64,000 bases of DNA. It comes from Acidobacteriota bacterium. GTDB taxonomy: Bacteria; Acidobacteriota; Blastocatellia; UBA7656. The stretch spans positions 62,001-126,000 of the forward strand of contig JBBPIG010000011.1 of the NCBI GenBank assembly GCA_038040445.1, written 5' to 3'. Positions 5,840 through 62,651 of the stretch are shown piece by piece. The stretch's first letter is position 1, and each line of letters begins with the position of its first letter. The notes under the pieces were generated by a model, which worked only from the letters and a program-made list of their open reading frames with translations, did no database searches and was not told the DNA's origin. Made by a program: the position numbers and the translations under genes.

Positions 5840-5959
5840 CATTTGGACGATGGCGAAGACATGGGTCTTGAAATCTCGCGACACTCACTATGACGATTGA
5901 AGCATCGCGCCTAAAACGATGCTTACAAAGGACGCACATCTCTCACATCGGTTGCCGAT

Positions 5960-6237
5960 AATCCCACCAACGCAGTTGGTGGTGCGTTCATACTCGGCCT
6001 ACAAAAGGACTGGCGCGCGCCCTTCGGAATCCCACCAACGCAGTTGGTCGCCACCAACGCAGTTGGTGGTGCGTTCATACCTAGCCTACAATGGCGGCGC
6101 TCACCTCGGTCAGTCCTTTTGTTTAGGCTGAGTATGAACAATCCACCAACTGCGTTGGTGGGATTCGGGGAGCTGCGTCGGCTCCAATAGACGTGTAGGC
6201 TGAGTATGAACGCACCACCAACTGCGTTGGTGGGATT
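5960..6237. repeat. Cluster of five palindromic units (CCACCAAC-GCA-GTTGGTGG) in a 600-base intergenic region
   Basis: The gap 5840-6437 holds no convincing gene. Its centre holds five copies of an 8-bp-stem palindrome at 5964-5982, 6032-6048 (arm shortened), 6051-6069, 6143-6161 and 6215-6233. Four copies carry a shared flank of about 20 bases (GTGCGTTCATACTCGGCCTA), so the unit is about 43 bp. The copies before 6090 point one way and those after 6120 point the other, making nested head-to-head pairs. Further partial matches outside the cores (AAAAGGACTG near 6004 and CAGTCCTTTT near 6112) extend the dyad. This resembles REP/BIME-type extragenic elements. Confidence 0.85.
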
Positions 6238-6437
6238 ACCGGAACACTTTATGTGTGCTATCGACTTTTTCAGGAGCCTGCCAATCGGACTACGCCTGTG
6301 TTTCGCCACTTCGTCGTAACCAAACGGCGCTCGCCGGCGTTTTGGCCTACAGCGGAATTCTTATCAGGTTCTATCAGCATTCAGTTTGTAAGTCTCCGCG
6401 AAAAATTCTCAGTACAACCTTAAGGAGAGAGTTGATT

Positions 6438-7858: not shown

Positions 7859-9061
7859 CTACTCGTACTTCTTAAGTTCAAGCTTGGCAATTGACTCGCG
7901 ATGAACCTCATCCGGTCCGTCCGCGAGCCTCAACGTGCGAGCGCCCGCCCACGCCGCCGCGAGCTCGAAGTCCTGGCACACGCCGCCGCCGCCGCAAGCT
8001 TGAATCGCTCGGTCAATCACTCGCAAAGCCATGCTCGGCGCGATGACTTTGATCATCGCGATCTCGGCACGCGCGGCTTTGTTGCCGACGGTATCCATCA
8101 TATAAGCCGCCTTCAAAGTCAGCAGCCGCGACTGCTCGATTTCCATGCGCGACGTAGCAATGTCCGCGCGAATGGTCCCCTGCGCCGCGATCGGCTTTCC
8201 GAACGCGACGCGCGAGCGGACTCGCTTGCACATCGTTTCAAGCGCACGCTCCGCCAATCCGACCAATCGCATACAGTGGTGTATGCGGCCCGGCCCCAGC
8301 CGCCCTTGAGCGATCTCAAATCCGCGCCCTTCGCCCAACAGCATGTTCGAAACGGGAACGCGAACGTTTCCGAACGAAACTTCTCCGTGGCCGTGCGGCG
8401 CGTGATCGTAGCCGAACACCGTTAGCATCCGCTGGATCTTCACTCCAGGAGCGTCCATCGGGACGAGAATCATGGATTGTTGTTTGTGCAACGGCGCCGT
8501 GGGATCGGTCTTGCCCATGAAAATCGCGATCTTGCAGCGTGGATCGCCCGCGCCTGAGCTCCACCACTTGAGTCCGTTGATTGCGTAGTGATCTCCGTCG
8601 CGAACGATGCTAGCTTGAATGTTGGTCGCGTCTGATGATGCGACCGCCGGCTCGGTCATCGCGAAGCACGAACGAATCTCACCGTTGAGCAGAGGCTTCA
8701 GCCATTGTTCCTTCTGCTCTTCGCTGCCGTAACGGGCGAGCACTTCCATGTTTCCGGTGTCGGGAGCTGAGCAGTTGAACACCTCGGGCGCCATTGTGGA
8801 TCGGCCCATGATTTCACACAGCGGAGCATACTCCAGGTTGGACAGCCCCTCGCCAAAAGGGTTCTCAGGCAGGAACAGATTCCACAGACCCGCGGCGCGC
8901 GCCTTGGGCTTCAGCTCTTCTATGATTGCGGTCGGCTGCCATCTGTCGCCTTCATTGATCTGTTGATAGAAGACCTTCTCGTTTGGATAAACGTACTCGT
9001 CCATGAATGCGAGAAGCCTCGTCTGAAGCGCTTTGACTTTGTCTGTGTATTCGAAGTGCAT
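7859..9061 (-). CDS. Acyl-CoA dehydrogenase family protein
   Basis: The 400-residue protein carries the ACAD fold: an N-terminal helical domain, the middle FAD/substrate part ([16 protein letters not shown], then [16 protein letters not shown]), and a C-terminal helical bundle ([18 protein letters not shown], ending with [16 protein letters not shown] and [21 protein letters not shown]). The ATG at 9061 (protein start [12 protein letters not shown]) has AAAGGA upstream and matches the family start. The sequence resembles the ACAD10/11-like group, but substrate chain length cannot be read from sequence. It probably acts with the downstream SDR, or with electron-transfer flavoprotein encoded elsewhere. 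Confidence 0.92.
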
Positions 9062-9152
9062 ATGGATTCCTTTCTTGGTTATGAGTGAGAGGCCATCACG
9101 ATAGTTGATGAATGGCGAGAGTTCAACCTTTGGAGCGAAGAGCATGGAGTCC

Positions 9153-9199
9153 GTAGTGAGTAGTCAGTCGTCAGTCGTCAGTCGTCAGTCGTCAGTCGT
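9153..9199. repeat. 7-bp tandem repeat (CAGTCGT)n overlapping the end of the PDO gene
   Basis: After GTAGTGAGTAGT there are about five copies of CAGTCGT. The stop codon and last residues of the minus-strand disulfide oxidoreductase gene (9185 onward) lie inside this array. Other 7-bp arrays in the window are at 29422, 47637, 50509 and 53861. Confidence 0.85.
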
Positions 9200-9883
9200 G
9201 GCCTTTCCGTCTGTTTCCACCGCTGCCCGAACATGGGCCAGATACTGCGCCTCGGGCAGCGCGCCGACGAACTCCGTTGTTTCATTGATCACAATCTTGG
9301 GCACGCCCCTGACACCGTAGCGGCGCGAGAGATCCGGGAACTCCATCGCTTCGATAACATCAGCCGTCACGTGCGCGCTCTCAACCGCCATCTGGTGGGC
9401 CATCCTGGCCGCCGCGGGACAATACGGTCAGGTAGGTGTCGTGAAGACTTTGATGTTCACATCCTCGGTTAGCGTGGACAGATACTCGCGCGTCTCCTCC
9501 GAGAGATCAGTCGTACCCTTGGAGACATCGACCAAATCCTCGATCAATGCGGAGAACTCGTAGCCCGACGGGATTCCGAAGAAGCGCACTCGACCGCGCG
9601 ACGCGCCTTTGAAGACAAACGCCGGCACTCGATCAATGCCCAGCGCGTCCGCTTCTTCCTTTGCCGTCGAGATTTCATGCACCGTCAACTTCAGCTTATC
9701 CGACAACGCCGAGACTTCTTCGAGCAGTTCCTCGGTTTGAGTGCACATCTCGCAAGGCTGCTTGCCGGGAATAATGATCGGCGATTCGCGCTCGGTGAAC
9801 ATCACAATCTCGACGTCGCCGTCGAGACTCTCACTGAAGTGGTTGCGTATTGTCTCTCTGTCGGTTTCAGATATCAGTCCCAT
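9185..9883 (-). CDS. Glutaredoxin/PDO-like two-domain disulfide oxidoreductase with in-frame UGA (probable selenoprotein)
   Basis: Read through one UGA (9428-9430), the frame encodes 232 residues with two tandem thioredoxin folds, the layout of protein disulfide oxidoreductase (PDO). Domain 1 carries KQPCEMC (about residues 41-47) and the cis-Pro signature DRVPAFVF. Domain 2 has FTTPT-UGA-PYCPAAARMA, then GVRGVPKIVINE with its cis-Pro loop. The UGA exactly replaces the first cysteine of the CPYC motif found in PDO relatives, and the frame stays open on both sides. A SECIS-like hairpin follows the UGA. This combination is the classic sign of selenocysteine. If not decoded, the gene is broken after 151 residues. 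It would reduce or isomerise disulfides, or serve as reductant for peroxidases. The start ATG is at 9883. The gene ends inside a 7-bp repeat array. Confidence 0.8.
9394..9413 (-). promoter_or_regulatory. SECIS-like hairpin directly after the UGA codon
   Basis: On the mRNA strand GGCC-AGGAU-GGCC (9398-9410) forms a 4-bp GC stem with a 5-base loop, extended below by a GG/CC pair across a small internal loop. The loop begins 22 nucleotides after the UGA and has G as its second base. Bacterial SECIS elements usually place the apical loop about 16-37 nucleotides after UGA with a G in the first two loop bases, so the fit is good. A stem this short could also occur by chance in GC-rich coding DNA. 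Confidence 0.6.
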
Positions 9884-9904
9884 TGTTTACTCCTATGAAG
9901 AAGG

Positions 9905-9991
9905 TTCGTAGTCCCGCCTTCAGGCGGAAGTTGGTAGCCGCCCTGCCTGAGTGCCAATCCCCCAACTTCCGCCTGAAGGCGGGACTACGAA
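9905..9991. repeat. Perfect 30-bp inverted repeat (TTCGTAGTCCCGCC arms)
   Basis: Arm 9905-9934 is repeated exactly in inverted orientation at 9962-9991, with 27 bases between. Each arm itself contains an internal small palindrome (CCGCCTTCAGGCGG). It lies between the DCoH gene and the PDO gene, both on the minus strand, and its right arm contains the last codon and TAG stop of the DCoH gene. It could act as an mRNA hairpin or terminator as well as being a dispersed repeat. Confidence 0.9.
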
Positions 9992-10299
9992 CTCTCCTCT
10001 GTTTCGATCAGCGCTTCGATCCGCTCAGCCAGGGCGAAGTCGTATTCGGTTACACCGCCCACTGCGTGCGTCCAGTTCCTGACCGTCACCTCATTGTAGT
10101 GAATGACAATGTCCGGGTGATGGTCCGCCGACTCGGCGATGTAAGCAACAGCGTTCACGAACAACATCGCGCGCACAAAGTTCTTGAACTCGTATTTCTT
10201 TTCGATCCAGTTTTCGCCGCGCAACCATCCGTTCAGCCGCGGCAGCCGCTTGCTGATTTCTTCTTCGCTCAGTTTCGGTGTGGCCGCGCTGCAAGTCAT
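9985..10299 (-). CDS. phhB: 4a-hydroxytetrahydrobiopterin dehydratase (pterin-4a-carbinolamine dehydratase)
   Basis: The 104-residue protein shows the complete DCoH/PCD signature ADHHPDIVIHYNEVTVRNW followed by THAVGGVTEYDFALAERI, with the three conserved histidines and the terminal Asp. It dehydrates 4a-hydroxytetrahydrobiopterin formed by aromatic amino acid hydroxylases. The ATG at 10299 is chosen because the family starts shortly before LSEEE; no strong ribosome-binding site is visible. It begins 4 bases after the stop of the lipoprotein gene, so the two are likely cotranscribed. The stop codon TAG lies inside a 30-bp inverted repeat. No aromatic hydroxylase gene is in the window. Confidence 0.93.
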   Translation of the reverse strand: MTCSAATPKLSEEEISKRLPRLNGWLRGENWIEKKYEFKNFVRAMLFVNAVAYIAESADHHPDIVIHYNEVTVRNWTHAVGGVTEYDFALAERIEALIETEESS

Positions 10300-60935: not shown

Positions 60936-62651
60936 ATGAAACTGAGAATCACCGCGTGCATCATGGTTCTTCTCGCACCAGCGCTGCTGCTCGCGCAACA
61001 GAAGCTTCCACCCGCTGCGCCGTTGCTCTCGCCTTCGCTCTGTGGCAAAGGCGTTTTCTCGTTCTGGCTCGGCGACACGTCTATCGGCCGCGAGGAGTTC
61101 GAGATCAAATGCCTGCCGGACGGCAGCTATGCGTCGAGTGGTCACACGGATTTCAAAGTGCCCGGCGCGTCGATGGATTTGAACACGACACTAGAAGTGG
61201 ACAAATCGGGCGAGCCCTTGTCCTCTACAGCGAAGGGCACGGTGAACGGCCAGCCATTCGATCAGTCCGTTGTTGTGAAAGCCGCGGTCGCCATCGTCAC
61301 AACCAGCGGCGCTTCAAAGGAACTCCCTTTCGCGAAGGGAACGTCCCTTCTGGGCGGAAACATTTTTCACATGTTTCAGTTCCTACTTGCTCGCTATGAC
61401 GCGGCCCGGGGAGGAAGCCAGGAGTTCCAGGTTTTTCCAAACATGAGCGCCAAAGTCGAGCGCGTCGCGCGGGACGAGGTTCAAGCCACCGGCATTGCCG
61501 CTTCGCCGGCGCCTTCGTCTTTCGATCGGTATAGCATCACGGTGGCCATGTCAAACGTCATCGTGTGGGTCGACACGAAAGGCCGCATCGCCACGCTCGC
61601 GGTCCCGTTGCAAAACTTCGCTGCGGTGCTCGAGGAATACTCGAGCTTCATCCCGTCCTTCAAGGCCATTCTCTCAGCCAAGATGAAAGAGGCGGAGGTC
61701 GATTACGCGGCCCCGGCCGGTGCACCGTTCACCGCCGAAGAAATCACGGTCGAGGCGAAGGGCTTCACGCTGGCAGGCACCCTGCTTTTGCCGAAGACCG
61801 GCAAGCAGCCCTATCCCGCGGTCATCACCATAACGGGTTCGGGTCAGCAAACGCGCGATGAATACCTGCCGCTGCCGGGCCTTGAGAAATACAGACCGTT
61901 CCGGCAGATCGCCGAAGCGCTGGCAAGCCGCGGCATAGCCGTGCTGCGCGTCGATGATCGCGGCGTCGGAAAGTCGAAAGGCGGCGAGACGCTCAAGGCC
62001 TCGACCAGCGCCAATTTTGCGGATGACGTTCGCGCGCAGGTTGATTATCTCCGCGAGCGCAGAGACATCGACCCCGATCGCATTGCGTTAGCCGGGCACA
62101 GCGAGGGCGGAATGATCGCGCCGATGGTTGCGGCGAGCGATCCGCGCATCGCGTCCATAGTGCTGCTGGCAGGACCGGGCAAGCGCGGCGACGCGATCAT
62201 CGCTTATCAGGTGAATCAAGGTCTGCGGGGCGACCCAACTCTGACTGAAGAAGCCAGAGCCAAAGCCCGCGCCGAGCAGCAAGAAGCTATGCGCAAGGCA
62301 ATCGAAGGCGACGCGTCGGCGCCTGAAGCAATGCGCGCGACGTGGATGAGATACTTTCTTGCTTACGATCCACTGCCGGCGATTCGAAAGGTCCGTCAGC
62401 CGATATTGATCCTGCAAGGCGAGCTTGATCGGCAGGTGACCGCTGACCAGGCGGAGATGCTTGAGAAGGCGGCGCGCGAAGCAGGCAATCGCGACGTGAC
62501 CGCCCGCGTCTTCGTTGGGCTCAATCATCTGTTTCTTCCGGCGAAGACCGGCGCGCCCAGCGAATACTCTTCGCTTTCCACTAACGCGATCCCCGATGAC
62601 GTGATGAAGCTGTTAAGCGATTGGCTTGCGCAAAAGCTGAAAGTGAAGTGA
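60936..62651 (+). CDS. Secreted alpha/beta hydrolase
   Basis: The 571-residue protein has a signal peptide (RITACIMVLLAPALLLAQ), an N-terminal beta region of about 240 residues, and a C-terminal alpha/beta hydrolase domain (about 270-570). The latter shows PAVITITGSGQQTRDE (oxyanion), LRVDDRGVGKSKGG, nucleophile Ser389 in AGHSEGG, an acid residue in LQGELDRQVTADQ and the base in FVGLNHLFL. It matches serine aminopeptidase S33/dienelactone-hydrolase-like proteins. AAGGAGAG precedes the ATG. The substrate is unknown. It is followed 11 bases after its stop by the TonB-domain gene. Confidence 0.88.
   Translation: MKLRITACIMVLLAPALLLAQQKLPPAAPLLSPSLCGKGVFSFWLGDTSIGREEFEIKCLPDGSYASSGHTDFKVPGASMDLNTTLEVDKSGEPLSSTAKGTVNGQPFDQSVVVKAAVAIVTTSGASKELPFAKGTSLLGGNIFHMFQFLLARYDAARGGSQEFQVFPNMSAKVERVARDEVQATGIAASPAPSSFDRYSITVAMSNVIVWVDTKGRIATLAVPLQNFAAVLEEYSSFIPSFKAILSAKMKEAEVDYAAPAGAPFTAEEITVEAKGFTLAGTLLLPKTGKQPYPAVITITGSGQQTRDEYLPLPGLEKYRPFRQIAEALASRGIAVLRVDDRGVGKSKGGETLKASTSANFADDVRAQVDYLRERRDIDPDRIALAGHSEGGMIAPMVAASDPRIASIVLLAGPGKRGDAIIAYQVNQGLRGDPTLTEEARAKARAEQQEAMRKAIEGDASAPEAMRATWMRYFLAYDPLPAIRKVRQPILILQGELDRQVTADQAEMLEKAAREAGNRDVTARVFVGLNHLFLPAKTGAPSEYSSLSTNAIPDDVMKLLSDWLAQKLKVK

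Follow-up and report, generated by a model that had tools for sequence, protein, structure and literature searches.

Does the UGA codon in the frame of a thioredoxin-like gene from an Acidobacteriota bacterium (class Blastocatellia) end translation, or is it read as selenocysteine (Sec)? The gene lies in the window studied here, i.e. the stretch of 64,000 nucleotides at positions 62,001 to 126,000 of contig JBBPIG010000011.1, and positions without a contig name refer to this window. The read-through frame runs from 9883 to 9185 on the minus strand, with an ATG at 9883..9881, the in-frame TGA at 9430..9428 and a terminal TGA stop codon at 9187..9185. An earlier note on this DNA had placed the gene and the UGA at these coordinates but left the minus strand unsaid, and its count of 77 codons past the UGA has to be raised: the product of 232 residues comprises 151 residues upstream of the UGA and 80 sense codons downstream. 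From 9883 to 9185 the translation reads MGLISETDRETIR...CEMC...FTTPT-UGA-PYCPAAARMAHQ...RRYGVRGVPKIVINE..., whereas automated annotation under table 11 would give a truncated 151-residue ORF and a separate short ORF. We propose, with a probability of about 0.96, that the gene encodes a cytoplasmic protein disulfide oxidoreductase (PDO) of two thioredoxin (Trx) folds, in which UGA152 is decoded as Sec by means of SelB and tRNA-Sec, directed by a downstream hairpin. In other words, selenium is predicted to be incorporated at residue 152.

The read-through product matches the NCBIfam model TIGR02187 (PDO_seleno_TRX) with 266.3 bits over residues 6-220 (profile positions 2-208/209), the curated cut-off of the model being 185 bits. 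The closest solved structures by sequence are the PDOs of P. horikoshii and P. furiosus (E 7e-49 and 5e-46, respectively), and the AlphaFold model (pLDDT 89.5) has 1j08, 1a8l and 2ayt as its top PDB matches, with TM values of 0.86-0.90. Model and matches agree with the two thioredoxin folds described previously. Domain 1 keeps an ordinary CEMC motif (Cys44-Cys47, 9743..9754, minus strand), as had been claimed, with both cysteines invariant in the alignment. In domain 2 the active site is indeed read in frame as FTTPT-UGA-PYCPAAA, i.e. the UGA (9428..9430, minus strand) occupies the first position of a U-P-Y-C motif as predicted Sec152, a position at which each of the 78 homologs examined has either Cys or UGA. 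The codon of the putative resolving cysteine, Cys155 (UGU, 9419..9421, minus strand), is invariant in the alignment, and so is Pro195 in a GVP motif (9299..9301, minus strand), which we take to be the cis-Pro from what is known of Trx folds. By profile and by model the gene is a two-domain PDO of TIGR02187, with a predicted disulfide reductase/isomerase activity. We note that a heptamer tandem repeat, AGTCGTC (5.9 copies, 9159-9199), overlaps the final codons and the stop codon; it encodes part of the C-terminal tail (...ATTDD), and this tail differs in the relatives.

The simplest alternative is a nonsense mutation, which would leave a pseudogene or only a truncated one-domain protein. The UGA does stand in frame and a downstream ATG (9403) could begin a 72-aa ORF, but the codon is kept in separate genomes. 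A genome of the same genus (G001, PDO 84% identical) and one of the same family (G005, 76% identical) carry the UGA at the same codon and have the same upstream neighbour gene, and a UGA at this codon is also found in two further genomes (G018 and G034) and in a Chloroflexota MAG. Selection downstream of the UGA equals that upstream: across the gene and the two relatives dN/dS is 0.056-0.112 after the UGA versus 0.099-0.113 before it. Downstream of the UGA the PDO frame is open, whereas stops interrupt the other two frames in almost every one of the three sequences. Since purifying selection past the UGA matches that before it and the relatives keep the codon, a frame left open by chance is far from likely. 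The same relatives bear on a sequencing or assembly error, i.e. a UGC or UGU read as UGA. The UGA recurs in independently assembled genomes whose proteins are 76-84% identical, as well as across the phylum, so that a base-calling error is ruled out.

The wider distribution of the codon was surveyed in 396 genomes sampled evenly across the phylum. A PDO above the cut-off is present in 71, and 29 of these 71 have an internal TGA. At the 30 places with an internal stop, this codon is always TGA and never TAA or TAG, and each internal TGA, inspected individually, takes the place of the leading residue of the C-x-x-C in domain 2. Every homolog checked that lacks the UGA has TGC or TGT at that codon. 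The comparison of homologs that the earlier note had proposed thus returned exactly Cys or TGA, and never another stop. SelA was found in 28 of the 29 UGA genomes and in only 18 of the 42 Cys-type genomes (Fisher p about 2e-6, a value that ignores the kinship of the genomes). The remaining UGA genome, G355, has no clear SelA; its SelB is above the cut-off, and SelA is therefore treated as missing from the draft assembly. One genome of the phylum, G403, carries two UGA-containing PDO genes (G403:C33 and G403:C41; L106 and L108). A nonsense mutation would be expected neither to exclude TAA and TAG nor to be tied to the presence of Sec genes; we regard it as very improbable, and a sequencing error as more improbable still.

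The source genome (6.75 Mb, 72 contigs, 100% complete) contains the complete Sec-decoding machinery, i.e. SelA (575.8 bits), SelB (359.3 bits), SelD (352.2 bits, G000:C21:108415-109344, L039) and a tRNA-Sec with anticodon TCA (UCA; 70.6 bits). The earlier note had called for a search for these genes, and all four are present. The SelD gene has an in-frame TGA of its own, in the active-site motif ...SCAG-U-AAK..., and is itself a predicted selenoprotein gene. A general change of the code or a suppressor that makes UGA an ordinary amino acid would also be consistent with the frame, which is open as soon as a residue is assigned to the UGA. Against this, the PDO gene itself terminates in TGA, its neighbours are uninterrupted under table 11, and the genome has the full Sec machinery including tRNA-Sec(UCA), which puts a code change at the same very low level as a sequencing error. 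All three rival readings (sequencing error, pseudogene, code change) can in effect be dismissed. The proposal that the UGA is a probable Sec codon in a PDO gene is upheld by the conservation of the UGA in relatives, the Sec genes of the genome and the selection past the UGA.

Decoding as Sec would be directed by a hairpin downstream of the UGA; a bacterial SECIS (bSECIS) is expected immediately 3' of that codon and to have a G in the first two bases of its loop. A candidate bSECIS apical hairpin, GGCC-AGGAU-GGCC, is located at 9398..9410 (minus strand), with a loop that starts 21 nt after the UGA. It is present in both relatives (G001 and G005) as GGCC-AGNNU-GGCC and in the UGA-bearing Chloroflexota homolog as GGCC-AGGAU-GGCU. 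The AGGAU loop is without the GGUC that is common to many other members and that is also the loop of the E. coli fdhF SECIS, and its offset of 21 nt differs from the 17-18 nt that are usual in the wider family. Folding of the single sequence over 46-64 nt after the UGA gave no unusual stability, and Rfam at the gathering threshold gave no match in the window. The stability of this hairpin alone is no better than that of synonymous-codon controls (p 0.77), and for the gene studied here a SECIS function is no more than plausible.

At the level of the family the pattern is clearer. Hairpins 17-21 nt after the UGA are common to the Sec-type members, whereas the Cys-type members are without them. 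Stability relative to synonymous controls is higher in the Sec group than in the Cys group (Mann-Whitney p 8e-5), and the Ala-Val codons GCG-GUC, which put GGUC in the loop, occur in 19/30 Sec versus 3/28 Cys sequences (p 4e-5); shared ancestry inflates both p values. Moreover, the third positions of a Pro and a Leu codon, each of which can vary freely, change in concert as C-G, G-C and A-U in the Sec rows (p 0.001, versus 0.33 in the Cys rows, again inflated by shared ancestry, and counted in a subset of 18 sequences that share the 17-18 nt loop and were picked after the sequences had been viewed). No one stem register suits every Sec member, because the register of the hairpin varies by lineage. 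On these comparisons, the case for a SECIS is stronger for the family than for the gene itself.

How might the protein work? The relay that we propose is modelled on archaeal PDOs and on the N-terminal domain of AhpF. The catalytic site would be U-P-Y-C in domain 2, with a second site, C-E-M-C, in domain 1. By this analogy Sec152 is most likely the nucleophile that attacks substrate disulfides, Cys155 would resolve the mixed selenenylsulfide, and the CEMC of domain 1 would pass electrons from an NADPH-dependent thioredoxin reductase to the site of domain 2. Peroxiredoxins or oxidised proteins are plausible substrates; electron donor, substrates and the direction of electron flow are all drawn from the analogy and are putative. 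The archaeal and Aquifex PDOs used for comparison (P. furiosus 1a8l, P. horikoshii 1j08, A. aeolicus 2ayt/2ywm) share with the present protein the tandem Trx folds and two CxxC-type sites, at about 35-40% identity and TM values of 0.86-0.90. They have a C-terminal CPYC, whereas here Sec replaces its first Cys, and the host is, as far as known, not a thermophile (its MAG relatives are from soil or permafrost, judged by names only). The N-terminal domain of AhpF (1zyn, 1hyu, 5h29) is likewise built of two such folds (TM 0.69-0.81), with a second site that is redox-active. The present PDO differs from it in that it stands alone, without the flavoprotein part, keeps the CxxC of domain 1 and has predicted Sec in the active site.

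The neighbouring genes do not point to a partner of the PDO. Upstream lies phhB (9985..10299, minus strand; pterin-4a-carbinolamine dehydratase, Pterin_4a 108.9 bits), which keeps this place in three genomes, i.e. the source genome, G001 and G005. Downstream lies an acyl-CoA dehydrogenase gene (7859..9145, minus strand, identified by its Acyl-CoA_dh domains), which is found in this place in G001 as well. No trxB or peroxiredoxin gene was seen beside the PDO gene, so its redox partners are ones that we infer; a single clear thioredoxin reductase (389 bits, G000:C9:142440-143354), of the ordinary type and not adjoining the PDO gene, is encoded in the source genome. Two further repeats were observed in the window. 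Between the PDO start and phhB, at 9904-9992, there is a nearly perfect inverted repeat (TTCGTAGTCCCGCCTTCAGGCGGAAGTTGG and its complement); within the window the motif is present only there, and it may be a small repeat element. At 5923-6309 a repeated stretch encodes NPTNAVGG-like peptides on both strands, in frames that overlap, and resembles copies of an intergenic repeat and not a gene.

The distribution of Sec and Cys was compared with a tree of 75 rows in which the Sec column was masked. The labels need 11 changes on the tree, at least 8 of them forced by well-supported branches, and shuffled labels are expected to need 24.9. Species with Sec and species with Cys alternate within a single genus, g13 (Sec in L029 and L031, Cys in L028 and L030). 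It is possible, at somewhat less than even odds, that the catalytic residue of the Acidobacteriota PDOs has switched repeatedly between Sec and Cys, with SECIS hairpins made anew in different registers (17-18 versus 21 nt).

In the tree, the clade of the source genome is joined by a MAG of the Chloroflexota with the UGA and by a bacterium with Cys (100/98 support). This grouping across phyla suggests a transfer of the PDO gene between phyla, in either direction. The PDO of the Chloroflexota MAG (Centralia_MAG_325, L035 3001-3705) is 52% identical; the UGA occupies the corresponding codon, and the hairpin is almost the same. The gene is located close to ftsA/ftsZ-like genes, and a UGA-containing PDO with a similar hairpin in such surroundings hints at a cross-phylum transfer. 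A single-protein scan of genome contigs gave four loci only, including this one and L036, which has Cys; plasmid records yielded no matches other than AhpF-like or distant PDO ones.

The earlier note had implied that such a protein would be new. This part does not hold, as a Sec-containing 'homolog of AhpF, amino-terminal domain' was reported in 2006 from Carboxydothermus and Symbiobacterium (PMC1794560), and Sec members with a UxxC motif have since been listed under TIGR02187 (PMC9312934; PMC13188914), the latter source placing them also in Asgard archaea. The NCBI model name, PDO_seleno_TRX, already includes 'seleno'. As the family is already listed with Sec and the gene matches the same model, it is a further member, and the idea of a Sec-containing PDO is not new. 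In other words, Sec in TIGR02187 PDOs is already known from other bacteria, and the Sec-type gene described here is soundly supported. With the known Sec PDOs (Symbiobacterium thermophilum, Asgard archaea) it shares the TIGR02187 model and the UxxC motif; it differs in its host (Acidobacteriota, Blastocatellia) and in the candidate SECIS loop of its clade, displaced to 21 nt past the UGA. Among the papers of the library searched, none on Blastocatellia and selenocysteine was found.

Little has been described of the selenoproteome of this phylum, to which the gene contributes a well-supported selenoprotein. Close species pairs that differ in having Sec or Cys allow the two residues to be compared within one enzyme. 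The switching pattern in the Acidobacteriota is the part that is possibly of specialist interest: if true, repeated switching would make the PDO family a natural experiment on the gain and loss of selenocysteine.
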